Assembly (NCBI GenBank): GCA_023229485.1
Contig: JALNZJ010000004.1
Location: 3,775 to 18,346 of the forward strand
From: a bacterium
GTDB taxonomy: Bacteria; Patescibacteriota; Minisyncoccia; Minisyncoccales; Minisyncoccaceae
Reading direction: 5' to 3'
DNA: 14,572 nucleotides
How positions within the stretch are numbered: the first letter of the stretch is position 1; each line of letters opens with the position of its first letter. This document shows, in pieces, positions 8,109 through 14,572 of the stretch. The position numbers and the translations under genes were made by a program. Below the pieces are notes generated by a model. That model searched no databases. It saw only the letters and a list, made by a program, of their open reading frames with translations, and was not told the origin of the DNA.

Positions 8109-11100
8109 ATGTCTAAAATAAAGGCTTTTACTCTTGTTGAAATAATTATCACGATTGCAATTATTGGTATTATGGCTTCGATAATATATATTAATTATAT
8201 TAACGAATCTTCTTATCAATCCACGTTAACAAAAGCAAAAACTTTTGCTGTTTCTGTTCCGTTATCTATTCTGACAAGTTTTGTATCAACGTGGAAATTT
8301 GATGGCTCAACAGCGATTAGTAGTCCAGCGACTACTGCTGATTTATTTGATTCGTGGGGTGATGCCAGTGGAACAAGTGTTTCGGGAACAGTTGTTTTGG
8401 GTGAAGATAGTTGCATATTTGGAAAATGTATTTATTTTAATGGAACGAGTGATGTCATCTCAACAGGTTCTTCAGAGGGTATTTTAAATAAAAAATCCAA
8501 TTGGACAATTTCTGCTTGGGTAAAGCCAGATGCTAATGGTGGTAAGGATTGTTTTTATTCGGAAGGAGAAGGGTCTAATACTATTTTTAATGCCTGTATT
8601 ACTGCTGATAATAATATTTCAGTTTCTATTTATAGAGGAGGTGTACTCGAGGAGATTACTACTAGTGCCTCTGTGAATAAGATTAATCGAGGAAAATGGA
8701 ATTATATCGTGATTAGTTTAATGAATGGTGATTCTAGTGGAATTTTAAAGTTTTGGTTAAATGGTGATTTAATATTTTCTACTAATAATCAATCGAAAAT
8801 TGATTACACTTCTAGTGCTATTCAGGGGAATATTGGAGCAAGCGTTAATGGAGCGGATTATTTTAAGGGGGCAATAGATGATATTCAGATATATAGTGAT
8901 TATGTTTCTTCTGCTGCTATCTCAAGCACCACAAGAGAATTAGTCAGTATTGCAATCACAAGTCCAGCCTCAAAAACAAGCTATGCCATTAATGATACTT
9001 TGGATATTAATGGATTGATTGTTACTGGCACTTATACTGATTCAACAACTAATATTGAAACGATAACAACTTCAAATATTACTGGATTTAATAGTAGTAG
9101 TCCTGTTGAAAATCAAGTCTTAACTATAACTTTTAATGGAAAGACGACGACATATAATATAAGCGTTGTTCCAACTATTCCTACTAACTTGGCTTGTTAT
9201 GGTTCTTCTGCCACAACCGTCAGTTGCTCATGGACAGCTGTCAGTGGTTCTGGAATTACCTATAGATTAAGAGTTGACTCTAGTGATTCTAATATTATTA
9301 GCTCTTCTACTATTCCGGCTTATAGTTCAGGCCTTACCTGTAATACTAATCATAATTATGAAATCAAAGCCTGTAGTGGTAGTGCCTGTTCTAATTATTC
9401 GGCTACTGTTTCTGCTAGTACTCTCGTTTGTCCTCCTGTAGCTCCCGCGAGCCTAACTTGTAGCACGAATTCGAAAACTGCTATTACTTGTAGCTGGCCA
9501 ACCTCGACAGGTGCAACCGCCTACGATCTTGAAAGGAATGGGTCGTCTGCAGAATTATTGACTAATACAAGAGCAGATACGGACTTGACTTGTGGTACTT
9601 CATATACTTATCGTGTTCGGGCTAAGAATGCTGGCGGTAATTCTGGCTGGGTGGCAACTAGCCCAGCAACAACCACAACAGCTATTTGTGCCCCCATAGC
9701 TCCTACTAGTTTGACCTGTACTCCTGCTTCTGGCACATCAATGAACTGTTCATGGACAGCCTCGGAAGGTGCTACTAGTTATGTCCTTAAAAGAGGACTT
9801 TCGACTGTTTATAATAATTCCGGAACGTCATTTACTGATTCGTCATTAATTTGTGGTACTTCTTATAATTATCAAGTACAAGCTTGCGATGGAACAGATT
9901 GTTCTGGATCAACAACGACTTCAGCGACTACGGTTGTTTGCCCTCCTGCTATTCCAGCTACTTTGACTTGTACGGGTGCCTCCGCTTCATTAATTAATTG
10001 TTCTTGGTCTAGTGTTTCTGGCACTACTTTATACCAGCTTCAAAGAGACGGGACGACTATCCAAAATTCTTCGGCCACCTCAAAGGCAGATTCCGGAATT
10101 TTATGTGATACTTATGCATATCAGGTAAATGCATGTAATGCTGGTGGATGCTCTGGATGGAAAACTGCGACTGGGTCTACTATTCAGTGTTATGCAGTAA
10201 AAAATTTGAATATTTCTACTGGTATACAAATAGCATCTTCTAGTGATTTTTCTAGGATTTATTATCATGGAGGGACTGGGAGTAATACTATTTATGGTTC
10301 ATCTGATTTTGGGACTACTTGGTCAACAGCTTCTCAGCCGCAAGGAAGTGCTACGAGTTATTATTTTGAGGGATTGGCTGCGTCTGGTAATGGCTCTAGA
10401 CTTTTAGCTGGAAGCAGTTCGGGAATTGACCTTGATCTTGGAAGATTGTTTGTGTCATCAGATTACGGTGCTACATGGACCGAGACACAACCGTCTGGAA
10501 ACGTAACAGTAGTATGGAGTAGACTTGCTATTTCTAATGATGGTTCTAAAATGTATGCGGCAGGATATAATGGGCCGGGTTATAGTGGTTGGCATATATA
10601 TTTATCTACTAATTACGGTACTACTTGGACAGAGCTTACGGGCATACAACGATGGCTTTCGTTTGATATTTCGACAAATGGAGCTTATGTTTATGCTTCA
10701 AATGCTACTGAAAATAAGTTATATAAGTCATCAGATTACGGCACTACTTGGGCAGAAATTGGCAGTTATGCTAATGATTTAAGTGTTTCTGGAGATGGGG
10801 CTCGTATTATTTATAGCAATACGAAATGGTCAGGTAGTACAATTGTTTCAGGTGGCAATTTGTACCTATCTTCAAATTATGGAGCAACGATTACCGAAAT
10901 TTTTCCTGCTGGTTCTGGAATAAAAGGTTGGCGTACACAAGGGATGTCTTCAAATGGAGCTCGTATGATTGCTGGAATAAGATCTGGTAGAATATACATG
11001 TCTCTTGATTATGGCTCTACTTGGAGTGAAATAAGGCCACTTGGAGATGTGAACACTACTCTTAGTGGTGTGAGATTTTCTACTGATGGCTCTCGTGTTC

Positions 11101-11147
11101 TTCTTATTATAGATGGTGTGTTGTATTTGGGAACGTTTCTTCCCTAA
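8109..11147 (+). CDS. Giant type IV pilin-like adhesin: LamG, Ig-like, 4 Cys-rich FN3, Asp-box propeller
   Basis: 1012 residues. The N-terminus is a class III prepilin signal, MSKIKA/FTLVE, with Glu at +5 and the hydrophobic helix IIITIAIIGIMASIIY. A prepilin peptidase would cut after A6 (Ala rather than the usual Gly). Then follow a LamG/concanavalin-like domain (about 60-270, with CIYFNGTSDV, WTISAWVKP, KGAIDDIQIY), a bacterial Ig-like domain (about 277-354, GLIVTGTYTD...TTYNISV), four fibronectin III domains starting near 355, 442, 528 and 612 (period about 85), and a beta-propeller-like tail with six Asp-box motifs (S-x-[DN]-[YF]-G-x-[TI]-W-like, from about 731, 783, 833, 874, 921, 965). 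The layout predicts a pseudopilin or minor pilin exposing carbohydrate- or protein-binding modules, for attachment to a host cell or matrix. It is a single gene with 57 nt upstream of it and no terminator evident after it. Confidence 0.9.
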   Translation: MSKIKAFTLVEIIITIAIIGIMASIIYINYINESSYQSTLTKAKTFAVSVPLSILTSFVSTWKFDGSTAISSPATTADLFDSWGDASGTSVSGTVVLGEDSCIFGKCIYFNGTSDVISTGSSEGILNKKSNWTISAWVKPDANGGKDCFYSEGEGSNTIFNACITADNNISVSIYRGGVLEEITTSASVNKINRGKWNYIVISLMNGDSSGILKFWLNGDLIFSTNNQSKIDYTSSAIQGNIGASVNGADYFKGAIDDIQIYSDYVSSAAISSTTRELVSIAITSPASKTSYAINDTLDINGLIVTGTYTDSTTNIETITTSNITGFNSSSPVENQVLTITFNGKTTTYNISVVPTIPTNLACYGSSATTVSCSWTAVSGSGITYRLRVDSSDSNIISSSTIPAYSSGLTCNTNHNYEIKACSGSACSNYSATVSASTLVCPPVAPASLTCSTNSKTAITCSWPTSTGATAYDLERNGSSAELLTNTRADTDLTCGTSYTYRVRAKNAGGNSGWVATSPATTTTAICAPIAPTSLTCTPASGTSMNCSWTASEGATSYVLKRGLSTVYNNSGTSFTDSSLICGTSYNYQVQACDGTDCSGSTTTSATTVVCPPAIPATLTCTGASASLINCSWSSVSGTTLYQLQRDGTTIQNSSATSKADSGILCDTYAYQVNACNAGGCSGWKTATGSTIQCYAVKNLNISTGIQIASSSDFSRIYYHGGTGSNTIYGSSDFGTTWSTASQPQGSATSYYFEGLAASGNGSRLLAGSSSGIDLDLGRLFVSSDYGATWTETQPSGNVTVVWSRLAISNDGSKMYAAGYNGPGYSGWHIYLSTNYGTTWTELTGIQRWLSFDISTNGAYVYASNATENKLYKSSDYGTTWAEIGSYANDLSVSGDGARIIYSNTKWSGSTIVSGGNLYLSSNYGATITEIFPAGSGIKGWRTQGMSSNGARMIAGIRSGRIYMSLDYGSTWSEIRPLGDVNTTLSGVRFSTDGSRVLLIIDGVLYLGTFLP

Positions 11148-11222
11148 TTAATCAAGGAATAGAGTTGATGAAAGCTAATTTTTAAGGTAAGTTTAATTTA
11201 TAATAATAATGATTTTAGAAAG

Positions 11223-12235: not shown

Positions 12236-13105
12236 ATGAAAAAGACTGCTTATATTATTTTAACTGTTTTGGTTATTATTAATATCATTAGTTGGTCATT
12301 TTTATTTTCAACAAAAGATAACTTGCTTAAGGTTATCTTTTTTGATGTTGGGCAGGGGGATGGAATTTTTATAGAAACTTTAGATAAAAAACAAATAGTA
12401 ATTGATGGTGGTCCTGATTATAATTTAATGGCTGAAAAGATTTCTGAAGAATTACCTTTCTGGGATAAGGAGATTGATGCAATTATTTTAACTCATACCG
12501 ATAGCGATCACATGAATGGGCTTTTGGGTGTTTTAGAAAAATATAAGGTTGATAATATTTTATGGACTGGAGTAAAAAAAGAAGGGATGGAAAAGAAAAT
12601 AGAAAATTGGGAAAATATAGTAAATAAGGAAGTAGAAAATAATGGGGCTAAAGTTTTTTTAGTTAAAAATACTAATACCATATTGACTAGCAATATGAGT
12701 TTAAATTTTCTTTGGCCAGAAAAAATTAATGAGAAAATTAATAGTAACGATTCTAACGATTATTCCTTAGCTTCAAGATTATGTTATTTAAAAACATGTT
12801 TTTTATTTATGGGTGATATGTCTTTTAATGAAGAAAAAAATGTCATTCGAGATGAGGATATAAAGGGCGATATTTTAAAGGTTGCTCATCATGGTTCAAA
12901 ATATGCAACGTCTAATGAATTTATATCCGCGGTTTCTCCAAAGTTGGCAATAATTGAAGTGGGTAAAAACAGTTATGGGCATCCAGCTTTAGAAACGATA
13001 AAAAGATTAGAGGATTATGGGGCTAAGGTAGTGAGAACGGACACGCAGGGGGATATTACTGTTTTCTCGGACGGGCAAGATTATAAGATAGTTTATGAAA
13101 AATAG
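12236..13105 (+). CDS. ComEC/Rec2-type metallo-beta-lactamase-fold hydrolase, membrane anchored
   Basis: 289 residues. Residues about 4-26 are a single hydrophobic signal or anchor, so the catalytic domain is probably outside the membrane. The domain begins LKVIFFDVGQGDGIFIE, typical of the ComEC C-terminal domain, with VIDGGPD, the metal motif ILTHTDSDHMNG (H87, D89, D91, H92), FLFMGDMS (D194), LKVAHHGS (H218, H219) and a final SYGHPALETIKRLEDYGAKVVRTDTQGDI. All metal ligands expected for two zinc or manganese ions are present. Full ComEC has a large competence channel in front, which is absent here. CPR genomes often carry such stand-alone forms, which are thought to be DNA-uptake or extracellular nucleases, but the substrate is not shown by sequence. 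It is in an operon with the DUF1858 gene (5 nt gap). Confidence 0.9.
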   Translation: MKKTAYIILTVLVIINIISWSFLFSTKDNLLKVIFFDVGQGDGIFIETLDKKQIVIDGGPDYNLMAEKISEELPFWDKEIDAIILTHTDSDHMNGLLGVLEKYKVDNILWTGVKKEGMEKKIENWENIVNKEVENNGAKVFLVKNTNTILTSNMSLNFLWPEKINEKINSNDSNDYSLASRLCYLKTCFLFMGDMSFNEEKNVIRDEDIKGDILKVAHHGSKYATSNEFISAVSPKLAIIEVGKNSYGHPALETIKRLEDYGAKVVRTDTQGDITVFSDGQDYKIVYEK

Positions 13106-13155: not shown

Positions 13156-13310
13156 TGGTTCTATGTTTTAAATTTCCTAACAAATTTATATAGGGAGCCT
13201 ACTTTTTTTGACTACCGTGGTAGTTGAAATCGGTGCCCACTTCAAAAGTGGTTAGGACTTCTTAAAATCGTAGAACCATAAATAGCGCCCGATGGACGCT
13301 ATTTATTCTA
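13156..13310 (+). ncRNA. Structured non-coding RNA, 6S-like rod with central bubble
   Basis: No ORF fits this gap, but it folds end to end. The closing stem TGGTTCTA (13156-13163) pairs with TAGAACCA (13271-13278) and continues through GU and AU pairs. A second stem TCCTAAC (13175-13181) pairs with GTTAGGA (13251-13257). GGGAGCC (13193-13199) pairs with GGTGCCC (13232-13238), with one mismatch and one GU. The tip is ACTAC-CGTG-GTAGT (13211-13224), extended by AU and GU pairs. Between the second and third stems lies an asymmetric bubble: 13182-13192 is A/T-only on the 5' side, and 13239-13250 on the 3' side can form a small hairpin. A promoter ends exactly at its 5' end and an inverted repeat follows. 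This matches the plan of 6S RNA, which binds RNA polymerase by mimicking an open promoter. Sequence alone cannot confirm the family; it could be another CPR-specific RNA. Confidence 0.55.
13278..13306 (+). terminator. Inverted repeat, possible terminator or processing hairpin of the 13156 RNA
   Basis: A 10-bp stem ATAAATAGCG (13278-13287) / CGCTATTTAT (13297-13306) with a 9-nt loop. The T tract after it is poor (TCTATG), so it may be a weak terminator or a 3'-end stabiliser. Confidence 0.5.
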
Positions 13311-13376
13311 TGAAAAAGAGAGTGGTTCGGGAGATGCTTATAAACATGTTTGAGAAATTGTGGAAAATAAAAAAAG

Positions 13377-13450
13377 GGGCGTTTAGCTCAGTTGGTTAGA
13401 GCGTTGCGTTCACATCGCAGAGGTCACAAGTTCGAATCTTGTAACGCCCA
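13377..13450 (+). tRNA. tRNA-Val (anticodon CAC)
   Basis: A full cloverleaf. Acceptor GGGCGTT (13377-13383) / AACGCCC (13443-13449), D-stem GCTC/GAGC, anticodon stem TTGCG/CGCAG with loop TTCACAT (CAC at 13411-13413), variable loop AGGTC, and T-arm ACAAG-TTCGAAT-CTTGT. The discriminator is A13450, and CCA is not encoded. It reads the GUG codon. It is a normal gene and a useful contrast with the interrupted tRNA at 14315. Confidence 0.96.
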
Positions 13451-13468
13451 CATTAAGAATTTAAAGTA

Positions 13469-13498
13469 TTGGCATTATATTACAAACGAGAGTATAGT
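13469..13498 (+). promoter_or_regulatory. Sigma70-type promoter for the 13526 gene
   Basis: TTGGCA (13469-13474), 18-nt spacer, TATAGT (13493-13498), both 5/6 to consensus. Predicted start is about 13505, 9 nt before the SD. Confidence 0.6.
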
Positions 13499-13525
13499 GG
13501 ACTCAGTAAGTTTGGAGGACGAGGG

Positions 13526-13813
13526 ATGTTACTTAATCAAAAAGATTGGTATTTGTATGTTCGGGACAGATGCACTGATAGTCGTATGAGGGGTGTATAT
13601 GGAAGAACATTGCCTTATGGCGAATTTAGCTTTGACGGCTTGACTAGCTATAGGTTGTTTAGAATTTCCAGCATGATAACTAATGAGATGTGCTGGGGAA
13701 GAACTTATCCTATTGGTCGCATGTGGAAGATAAGGAGAAAAATTGGGAAGTTTTTCTTTATTCTGGGTTGTTATTTTTGGAATAAAGAATTTTATAGAAG
13801 TGAGATGTGGTAA
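13526..13813 (+). CDS. Orphan 95-residue basic aromatic protein
   Basis: I do not recognise this protein. ATG 13526 is chosen because GGAGG (13514-13518) sits 7 nt upstream, one of the few good SD sites in the window; a TTG reading from 13469 would begin inside the promoter. The product is basic and unusually rich in Trp, Tyr, Phe, Arg and Gly. It contains a twice-occurring G-R-T-x-P-x-G motif (YGRTLPYGEF near residue 25 and WGRTYPIGRM near 57), and ends with KIRRKIGKFFFILGCYFWNKEF, a positively charged then hydrophobic stretch that could touch the membrane. Its own promoter, SD and a terminator 5 nt after the stop make it a complete transcription unit directly behind tRNA-Val. Such orphans behind tRNA genes can be acquired genes; no integrase or attachment repeat is seen. 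Confidence 0.6.
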   Translation: MLLNQKDWYLYVRDRCTDSRMRGVYGRTLPYGEFSFDGLTSYRLFRISSMITNEMCWGRTYPIGRMWKIRRKIGKFFFILGCYFWNKEFYRSEMW

Positions 13814-13818
13814 ATTTT

Positions 13819-13840
13819 AGTGCTCTTTGGGGCACTTTTT
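13819..13840 (+). terminator. Intrinsic terminator after the 13526 gene
   Basis: AGTGCTC (13819-13825) / GGGCACT (13830-13836), one GU pair, loop TTTG, followed by TTTTATTTT. Confidence 0.8.
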
Positions 13841-13857
13841 ATTTTGATAATTTTGAA

Positions 13858-13886
13858 TTGACTTATGAATTATAAGGTTATAGTAT
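13858..13886 (+). promoter_or_regulatory. Candidate promoter of the small 13890-13983 unit
   Basis: TTGACT (13858-13863), then TATAGT (13879-13884, 15-nt spacer) overlapping TAGTAT (13881-13886, 17-nt spacer). The likely start is near 13891-13893. Confidence 0.45.
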
Positions 13887-13888
13887 TA

Positions 13889-13983
13889 ATTATGGATATA
13901 AAAATATATCATAATTTAATAGGATCGAATTTTATCAATTTAGATACCGATTAGGCACATCATTTTTGATGTGTTTATTTTTT
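13889..13983 (+). ncRNA. Candidate small RNA or leaderless 20-codon ORF between promoter and terminator
   Basis: A unit of about 90 nt bounded by a promoter-like sequence and a terminator. Its 5' part is a near-perfect inverted repeat: ATTATGGATATA (13889-13900), loop AAAA, TATATCATAAT (13905-13915), 11 pairs with one bulged G. An ORF of 20 codons (13892-13954, MDIKIYHNLIGSNFINLDTD) begins at the predicted transcription start, and its TAG ends one base before the terminator begins. If translated it would be leaderless, and its ATG would lie within the hairpin. It may therefore be an sRNA, a micro-peptide, or chance in AT-rich DNA. Confidence 0.3.
13955..13983 (+). terminator. Intrinsic terminator
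   Basis: CACATCA (13956-13962) / TGATGTG (13967-13973), loop TTTT, followed by TTTATTTTTT. It is 140 nt after the previous terminator, which implies that a separate short transcript ends here. Confidence 0.8.
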
Positions 13984-13991
13984 ATAAAACT

Positions 13992-14018
13992 TTGACTTTT
14001 AAAAATAGTGGTTATAAT
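13992..14018 (+). promoter_or_regulatory. Promoter for the 14068 gene
   Basis: TTGACT (13992-13997) and a perfect TATAAT (14013-14018), 15-nt spacer. Predicted start is about 14025, leaving a 40-nt leader before ATG 14068. No terminator is seen before 14315, so the interrupted tRNA may be on the same transcript. Confidence 0.55.
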
Positions 14019-14067
14019 ATCCTCATTCTAGGGTTATTAGTATTTATTAATTAAATATTAAAAATAT

Positions 14068-14283
14068 ATGAAATATTATATAGATATTAAAGCTCAGCCC
14101 AATGGTGATTATGAAATTCATACAAAAGAATGTACGCATTTACCTATACATAAAAATATAAAATATCTTGGGGAGTTTCCGAATTGCAAGGAGGCCTTAA
14201 GGGAGGCAAAAAAATATTATACTGAAGCGAACGGATGTTATTATTGTTCAAGTGATTGCCACGAAGAAAATTTTGATATTTAA
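14068..14283 (+). CDS. Small Cys/His-rich protein, putative zinc-binding
   Basis: 71 residues. The N-terminus MKYYIDIKAQPNGDYEIHT looks like a beta hairpin. Then come C22, H24 and H28 in ECTHLPIH, the segment YLGEFPNCKEALREAKKYY (C40), and a dense metal-site-like NGCYYCSSDCHEE (C57, C60, C64, H65). Small proteins with 'NGDyEvH...C..lP...YLGeF..C.eA..eAkk.y...nGCyyC...CH' occur widely in bacteria as uncharacterised proteins. Similarity to the Cys-rich modules of Ada-type or zinc-ribbon proteins is only suggestive. Its gene has its own promoter at 13992. It lies 31 nt upstream of the interrupted tRNA-Gly and may share a transcript with it; whether that means anything functionally is unknown. 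Confidence 0.8.
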   Translation: MKYYIDIKAQPNGDYEIHTKECTHLPIHKNIKYLGEFPNCKEALREAKKYYTEANGCYYCSSDCHEENFDI

Positions 14284-14333
14284 ATAGGTTTGTGGTAAAT
14301 ATTAGTTATTGTATGCGGGAGTAGCTTAGGTGG

Positions 14334-14410
14334 CTTGCGAAGCAAGGCCGGAAGTTTGACTGAAACTGAGGCGGGCCCCGAAACATTTTCGGCAGAAAAT
14401 GATTGAGGGG
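14334..14410 (+). repeat. Structured tRNA insert, copy 1 (D-loop)
   Basis: Three hairpins in 77 nt. H1 is CTTGC-GAA-GCAAG (14334-14346). H2 is GCC (14347-14349) with GGC (14370-14372), an internal loop GGA/GA, and inner helix AGTTT/AAACT around loop GACTG (14358-14362). GGG follows (14373-14375). H3 is CCCC (14376-14379) with GGGG (14407-14410), a GAAA/TTGA zone, and inner helix CATTTTC/GAAAATG around loop GGCA (14391-14394), with one unpaired A at 14402. The flanks are GG on the left and GA on the right, as for copy 2. From 14347 on, it aligns with copy 2 without gaps over 64 nt. Confidence 0.75.
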
Positions 14411-14442
14411 GAGCGTTTGCTTCCCAAGCAAAAGATCGCGGG

Positions 14443-14529
14443 ATTGATTCGTGAAGCGAATCAATGACGGAGGCCTGTCTGAGGCCGAGTCGGGTTGCTA
14501 AAATTTTTCAGCAGAAAAATATTTAGCAA
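14443..14529 (+). repeat. Structured tRNA insert, copy 2 (T-loop)
   Basis: The same three-hairpin plan in 87 nt. H1 is ATTGATTCGT-GAA-GCGAATCAAT (14443-14465), twice as long as in copy 1 but with the same GAA loop. H2 is GAC (14466-14468) with GTC (14489-14491), the same GGA/GA internal loop, and GGCCT/AGGCC around loop GTCTG (14477-14481). GGG follows (14492-14494). H3 is TTGCTAAA (14495-14502) with TTTAGCAA (14522-14529), inner helix ATTTTTC/GAAAAAT around loop AGCA (14510-14513), and the unpaired A at 14521 in the same place as in copy 1. The exact left border is ambiguous: ATTGA at the left and GAAT at the right share GA. Confidence 0.75.
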
Positions 14530-14572
14530 GAATCCCGTCTTCCTTTAAAAAACTAGAGTATGTGGTTATTAT

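Follow-up and report, generated by a model that had tools for sequence, protein, structure and literature searches.

A tRNA-Gly(CCC) gene in the window (the whole stretch of 14,572 nucleotides that was analysed) is split by two copies of a structured repeat that is linked to tRNA genes in Patescibacteria, a very large group of bacteria with tiny genomes. On balance, the best explanation is that the repeat is a likely non-autonomous mobile mini-element, which would fold as single-stranded DNA and copy its target into its 5′ arm. As such, it would be a new kind of mobile element, and not a new kind of intron. This structured repeat, absent from Rfam 15, adjoins 39 of 111 tRNA genes, or about one in three, in three genomes. 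If movement occurs as proposed, target-templated arms would be a novel means by which mobile DNA selects and marks its site. This would account for interrupted tRNA genes that are overlooked by standard finders, and would offer a natural tRNA-based capture site for seeking cargo genes.

The features of the locus are listed below, with coordinates, strand, identity and basis.

12236..13105, + strand, MBL-fold (ComEC-like) gene, used to locate the uninterrupted tRNA-Gly of L016 (domain and homology searches)
13377..13451, + strand, neighbouring intact tRNA-Val(CAC) (ARAGORN, Rfam)
14315..14333, + strand, 5′ part of tRNA-Gly(CCC): acceptor 5′ strand GCGGGAG, D-stem 5′ strand, and D-loop to GGTGG (sequence; compared with L016 11087-11160)
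14334..14346, + strand, 5′ arm of the D-loop copy, CTTGC-GAA-GCAAG (repeat search and fold)
14347..14410, + strand, 64-nt core of the D-loop copy: helix P2 14347-14372, GGG linker, helix P3 14376-14410 (fold; R2 63.3 bits)
14411..14442, + strand, middle part of the tRNA: D-stem 3′ strand, anticodon arm 14416-14432 (CCC), variable region, and T-stem 5′ strand 14438-14442 (sequence)
14443..14465, + strand, 5′ hairpin of the T-loop copy, ATTGATTCGTGAAGCGAATCAAT (sequence; fold)
14466..14529, + strand, 64-nt core of the T-loop copy: helix P2 14466-14491, GGG linker, helix P3 14495-14529 (fold; R2 70.5 bits)
14530..14546, + strand, 3′ part of the tRNA: T-loop remnant GAAT (without TTC), T-stem 3′ strand CCCGT, and acceptor 3′ strand CTTCCTT (sequence)

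The gene extends from 14315 to 14546. The first-pass annotation had described a tRNA-Gly(CCC) with all canonical segments present and in order and with an insertion in each of two loops, and this description was confirmed: the segments are complete, and both inserts, one of 77 nt in the D-loop (14334-14410) and one of 87 nt in the T-loop (14443-14529), are real. It had also expected standard finders to miss such a gene, and ARAGORN and Rfam indeed reported the tRNA-Val at 13377 and not the tRNA-Gly. ARAGORN found no intact tRNA-Gly upstream of the inserts within the window. In the related locus L016, an uninterrupted tRNA-Gly(CCC) (11087-11160) follows a homologous MBL gene, and the order of tRNA-Val beside tRNA-Gly differs between L016 and the window. 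The named close matches of the window MBL and gpsA proteins were from Paceibacterota, Pacebacteria and Minisyncoccus, which places the contig in Patescibacteria. A large ORF at 8109-11147 of the window encodes a type IV pilin-like N-terminus together with LamG, fn3 and BNR/sortilin-like domains.

Comparison of the two inserts shows, beyond what the first-pass annotation had noted, that they belong to one repeat family. The inserts share a 71-nt direct repeat with 70% identity. The 64-nt cores match without gaps at 42 of 64 positions, whereas the best of 2000 dinucleotide shuffles reached 32; chance likeness was ruled out, as none of the shuffles reached 42. Both inserts had better predicted folds than shuffled sequences (z = −3.5 for 14334-14410 and z = −5.2 for 14445-14533), in agreement with the earlier claim that they are structured, and the same helices were predicted in each. 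The first core helix has the pattern (GCC or GAC)-GGA-stem-GA-(GGC or GTC), and is followed by a GGG linker and then by a hairpin, which has GGCA or AGCA as its loop and carries a single bulged base. The window cores are not recent duplicates of each other: their mutual identity is 0.66, and each has a closer match, at 0.72 and 0.70, in a copy from a different genome.

Two covariance models were used. Model R1 was built from the two window cores only, and model R2 includes copies from the genomes G002, G006 and G024, which therefore match it by construction. Within the window, R2 matched solely the two inserts at E values up to 0.1. The family has a predicted three-helix fold that covaries: in an alignment of twenty copies and the two window cores (A5, n = 22), 29 of 34 pairs vary on both sides, with a covariation score of 0.509 compared with 0.186 in shuffles, and 85.7% of the cells are paired, compared with 67.7% in shuffles. 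A one-column shift of the partners lowered the paired cells to 53.8% or 44.2%.

A search of the whole window against Rfam 15 at the gathering threshold returned tRNA-Val alone, and a search of 13300-14572 at E values up to 10 returned no match to the inserts. When six copy-bearing loci were searched against Rfam at E values up to 1, the gathering score was reached by tRNA and 16S rRNA alone; the other matches were scattered and weak, mostly to microRNA families, and far under their thresholds. Tandem Repeats Finder gave no result on L200, a single-copy locus. No description of the repeat was found in the literature searched.

Genomes were searched with both models. A search of 8 genomes with R1 revealed 10 copies in G002 and 6 in G006 (E below 1e-6). 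Within the family, R1 matches were present in 3 of 21 genomes and absent from the other 18 (E up to 0.01). With R2, matches were present in at least 15 of 247 genomes of the order (E up to 1e-3), at least 75 of 383 sampled genomes of the class (E up to 1e-5) and at least 40 of 379 sampled genomes of the phylum (E up to 1e-6); these samples overlap, with G002 in each, and their copy counts are lower bounds, with 11-17 candidates scored per genome under stricter filters. Weaker relatives were detected in G230, G231, G235, G243 and G085 (E 1e-10 to 1e-5), and 11 of 12 such loci inspected have no ARAGORN tRNA, while L150 has two on the opposite strand. By eye, the weaker relatives in G235 (L126, L142, L150, around 1501-1585) show outer stems longer than 30 bp, the middle part of which varies from copy to copy yet remains paired. 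A loose DNA pattern search of viral contigs gave 15 matches, none of them element-like on inspection.

Linkage to tRNA genes was examined in G002, G006 and G024, with 55 listed copies and 111 tRNA genes. A tRNA gene on the same strand lies within 350 nt upstream of 49 of the 55 copies, and these involve 39 tRNA genes. The six exceptions comprise one copy located 16 nt before a tRNA-Arg, one G002 copy without a same-strand tRNA, and four G024 copies on contigs without a listed upstream tRNA. For the class sample, the best match was inspected in 51 of the 74 match-bearing genomes other than G002. Nine of the first 11 lie 3′ of an ARAGORN tRNA; L226 has no tRNA, and in L228 a group I intron lies directly before a tRNA-like T-arm, which in turn precedes the element, so that the intron probably hides the tRNA. 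Among the next 40 genomes, 26 have the match 3′ of a tRNA. For the phylum sample, 15 of 20 matches are 3′ of a tRNA, one of these being a tmRNA; the 20 are from 39 genomes other than G002, omitting 12 that the class tally had covered and 7 with weaker matches, and the second-best match was used for G805.

In the usual layout, an intact tRNA is followed by an inverted copy of its T-arm, then by the core, and then by the 3′ end of the tRNA repeated in direct orientation. The spacing from tRNA to core is mostly tens of nucleotides, and tandem units occur at several tRNAs. A hairpin with a run of T, probably a terminator, is often seen by eye between the tRNA and the element (uncounted). The flanks were compared with tRNA sequences for 47 copies, which are 51 R2 matches minus 4 without an upstream tRNA in the stretch taken; three of the 54 matches of L183-L222 were left out (L218, L221 and the second in L194). 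The match of the 5′ arm begins at TTC (T54) in 39 of the 47 copies and elsewhere in 8, and the match of the 3′ flank begins at C56 in 37. The copy's own tRNA gave the best or tied fit to the 5′ arm in 32 of 47 and to the 3′ flank in 39 of 47. Another tRNA fitted better in 15 and 8 copies, respectively, and several such arms look decayed. The element also occurs at the 3′ end of rplK (Pfam Ribosomal_L11) in two genomes, at L236 and L245 (L279, L280), in the same layout, where the gene end is repeated in both inverted and direct orientation.

This anatomy suggests a mechanism, in which the element would fold as a single-stranded DNA site, a recombinase supplied in trans would join the folded site between T55 and C56, and the 5′ arm would be synthesised by fold-back copying of the target. 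Two cores of G024, one at Lys(ctt) and the other at Arg(tcg), share 98% identity and have different arms, each fitting its own tRNA best. The cores at Ser(tga) and Ser(gct) are identical, and again each 5′ arm fits its own tRNA best. From these sequences, the cores appear to have moved between tRNAs. By sequence identity, grouping of cores by tRNA type is absent: in a comparison of 40 of the 51 R2 matches and the two window cores, the 12 pairs between genomes that sit at the same tRNA had a mean identity of 0.606, and the 589 pairs at different tRNAs one of 0.611. Most copies are old, because core identity within genomes (0.63) is hardly above that between genomes (0.61). With one genome analysed per species, neither excision nor a pair of empty and filled sites in a single species was observed.

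A bolder form of this proposal is possible, and we offer it tentatively. The family may constitute phylum-wide target-copying mobile DNA, in which a protein-free core of ~64 nt would home to tRNA T-loops, join at T55|C56, and on every insertion equip its 5′ arm with a reverse complement of the target that takes in 2 nt on the upstream side of the joint, as a self-made guide to its own tRNA; it might further collect cargo in the manner of an integron. The rplK copies bear on the two additional nucleotides. The 5′ arm of L245 matches 12 nt of the intact gene end and 10 nt of the downstream copy, and the arm of L236 fits target and downstream copy equally, so that L245 is the single case that discriminates copying of the target from copying of the flank. 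The arm of L183 matches 16 nt of its tRNA and 8 nt of the downstream flank, a difference that decay of the flank could explain. At tRNAs, the extra two arm bases are AA, either a copy of T54-T55 or the element's own.

The element could instead have a host function, given its wide and old distribution. It could, for example, be a host-useful structured RNA, a tRNA 3′ trailer acting in tRNA maturation or regulation, which has spread mainly through local duplication. The strong covariation is in line with such an RNA, as is the location of 49 of 55 copies on the strand of the tRNA. Moreover, element copies in G006 lie between tRNA-Ile and tRNA-Ala, 3′ of a 16S rRNA 3′ end (L097 / L192, C6), and are presumably transcribed. 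We nevertheless regard a trailer RNA as rather unlikely. Of 1210 standard pairs in the two core helices, 22 (1.8%) are G-U, compared with 78 of 1197 (6.5%) in the tRNA stems of the same loci, and this scarcity favours folding or correction at the DNA level. Because the copies are related to one another, the nominal P value of this contrast does not stand as a real probability. A tRNA trailer would also not be expected at rplK, in the weaker relatives at loci without an ARAGORN tRNA, in a sporadic subset of the family genomes, or behind the probable terminator that often separates tRNA from element.

The arms themselves might be explained without target copying. An ordinary palindromic mini-transposon could acquire a perfect outer stem after insertion, by strand-switching (quasi-palindrome correction). 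The long outer stems of the G235 relatives, with their copy-specific middle parts, would fit this process, as would the predominance of Watson–Crick pairs with few G-U steps and the equal fit of the L236 arm to target and downstream copy. We consider it unlikely that this accounts for the family, since the arm of L245 fits the intact gene end 2 nt further than the downstream copy, and the arm of L183 fits its tRNA over twice the length of its flank, subject to possible decay of the latter. The choice of the T-loop would also be left unexplained.

A third alternative is that the copies are attR scars of tyrosine-integrase elements at tRNA T-arms. Such elements form their joint within a tRNA, so that an intact gene borders one side and the displaced 3′ end borders the opposite one. 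The copies described here resemble these scars in having an intact upstream tRNA and a direct duplication of its 3′ end from within the T-loop, and L277 has a possible 2.8-kb cargo at tRNA-Glu. We find this alternative very doubtful. A tRNA-specific attP does not explain a single conserved core at many tRNAs with re-matched inverted arms, and the tyrosine-integrase elements differ in having no such inverted target copy. The usual unit is too small for an integrase gene, the tens of nucleotides between tRNA and core leave no space for genes, and Phage_integrase domains are equally common in non-carriers.

In L277, tRNA-Glu(CTC) (25-99) and the element (2882-2978) are 2.8 kb apart, and the flank repeats the last 14 nt of the tRNA-Glu. 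The ORFs in between include an MvdD-type pre-ATP-grasp protein (Pfam MvdD) and a Peptidase_C39-like protein. L277 may be a cargo-bearing unit captured at a tRNA, and is a single case.

Two further alternatives concern the window gene alone. It is extremely improbable that it encodes a functional tRNA-Gly that tolerates structured expansions: the anticodon stem and T-stem are each paired at 5/5 positions (one G-U counted), but the acceptor stem is decayed, with one mismatch and two G-U pairs between GCGGGAG and CTTCCTT, and a normal elbow is not expected because the T-loop has lost TTC (T54-T55-C56 are absent in comparison with L016). The new tRNA intron type raised in the first-pass annotation is scarcely credible as a pair of introns that are spliced out: the inserts do lie in loops, with the anticodon stem and T-stem still paired, but none of 5760 excision products, obtained by shifting all four insert ends over 8-10 positions each, restored a TTC T-loop. 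This outcome also makes moot an archaeal-type intron, which would have a bulge-helix-bulge at each of its splice sites. The same annotation had judged that the known tRNA intron classes do not fit, and rightly so: no group I or II match was present at the inserts in the Rfam search, which recovered the group I intron of L228 (1109-1398) as a positive case. The repeat family is mostly located outside tRNAs, and splicing has no object at most copies because these sit 3′ of intact tRNAs (49/55 in the three genomes).

Under the mobile-element reading, the T-loop copy in the window is at the usual place of the family. Its downstream flank starts at G57, and its outer stem is formed by the tRNA's own T-stem strand GCGGG. 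At the 5′ arm of the D-loop copy, 14333-14345 complements 14417-14429 in the anticodon arm, with 12 of 13 positions matching; this arm is itself a hairpin, and is also identical to 14419-14431 at 11 of 13. The D-loop arm is the weaker evidence, because it and the anticodon arm are both hairpins. Most likely, the window records either two insertions, or an insertion and the collapse of a duplicated tRNA piece, resulting in a dead tRNA-Gly copy. The T-loop copy could have originated by direct insertion, or from a tRNA-plus-element array that collapsed between two nearly identical sequences, the T-stem strand and the 5′ arm. The interrupted tRNA-Gly is probably dead or a decoy. In L250 and L252, the element lies inside a duplicated 5′ half of tRNA-Ala, beside its anticodon arm, and the intact tRNA-Ala begins 139 nt (L250) or 110 nt (L252) after the start of the element match. 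Because this placement is alike, an intact tRNA-Gly may lie just beyond the end of the window.

Candidate mobilising enzymes were searched for in the 21 family genomes. None of the five searched tracks the carriers, which number three only and whose genomes may be incomplete. Y1_Tnp was present in 1 of 3 carriers (G006, E 1.2e-7; none in G002 and G024) and 1 of 18 non-carriers, with the same reservation about completeness. Phage_integrase was not enriched (2 of 3 carriers, 15 of 18 non-carriers). TIGR guide arrays were considered because TIGR has been reported from CPR bacteria (PMC12045711), and were rejected on account of the wrong unit size and the absence of Nop proteins, a Nop-domain protein being found in 0 of the 21 genomes. 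IS110 transposase was found in 0 of 3 carriers and 1 of 18 non-carriers, and an IS110 bridge RNA was rejected because the carriers lack the transposase. Reverse transcriptase was found in 2 of 3 carriers and 11 of 18 non-carriers (13 of the 21 genomes of the family of G002). A retro-mechanism was rejected, as reverse transcriptase is common in the family and not tied to carriers.

The element was compared with known systems of similar appearance. REP/RAYT and IS200/IS605 hairpins are small, dispersed, folded repeats with presumed single-strand mobility, and the element resembles them in all these respects; it differs in that GTAG occurs near the 5′ end in 2 of 59 copies, and the Y1 transposase was not found in two of the three carriers. 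Rickettsia palindromic elements are short palindromic inserts within genes, like the copies described here, but they are not known to show targeting of tRNA T-loops or target-matched arms. The E. coli rtT/tyrT repeats likewise follow a tRNA and contain its 3′ end, rtT being a tRNA 3′ trailer RNA, but they are not known to have a conserved three-helix core or inverted T-arm.

Integron attC sites are palindromic, conserved in structure with little conservation of sequence, and used as a folded single strand (PMC4792948). The element shares with them a palindromic site, a conserved structure (here seen as covariation), a fixed insertion point and tandem units (PMC4792948). In contrast to attC, RYYYAAC/GTTRRRY boxes were present in 0 of 59 element copies (first and last 30 nt), the target is a tRNA T-arm and not attI, no IntI was identified, and the arms vary from copy to copy and mostly match the local tRNA. 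The attP site of CTXphi consists of two dif-like sites in inverted orientation, is used by host Xer recombinases and gives tandem copies, and so resembles the element, which would likewise act as a single strand, in its inverted target-like arms and tandem occurrence (PMC4246890). CTXphi differs in being a phage genome with dif as its target, whereas the element is about 100-150 nt long and has many tRNA targets. Val et al. in 2005 reportedly described the single-stranded CTXphi genome as the integrating form. attC and the CTXphi attP, both of which employ single strands with inverted target-like arms, are relatives of the element in behaviour, not in membership.

The insertion sequences described in CPR rRNA genes, over half of them group I-like, were also considered and rejected, as they are located in rRNA and mostly group I-like, and tRNA is unmentioned in the main text of that report (PMC11270868). 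In three G002 loci (L185, L191 and L205), a second repeat, starting CCACTTCGCTC, was observed after the downstream copies of the tRNA 3′ end.
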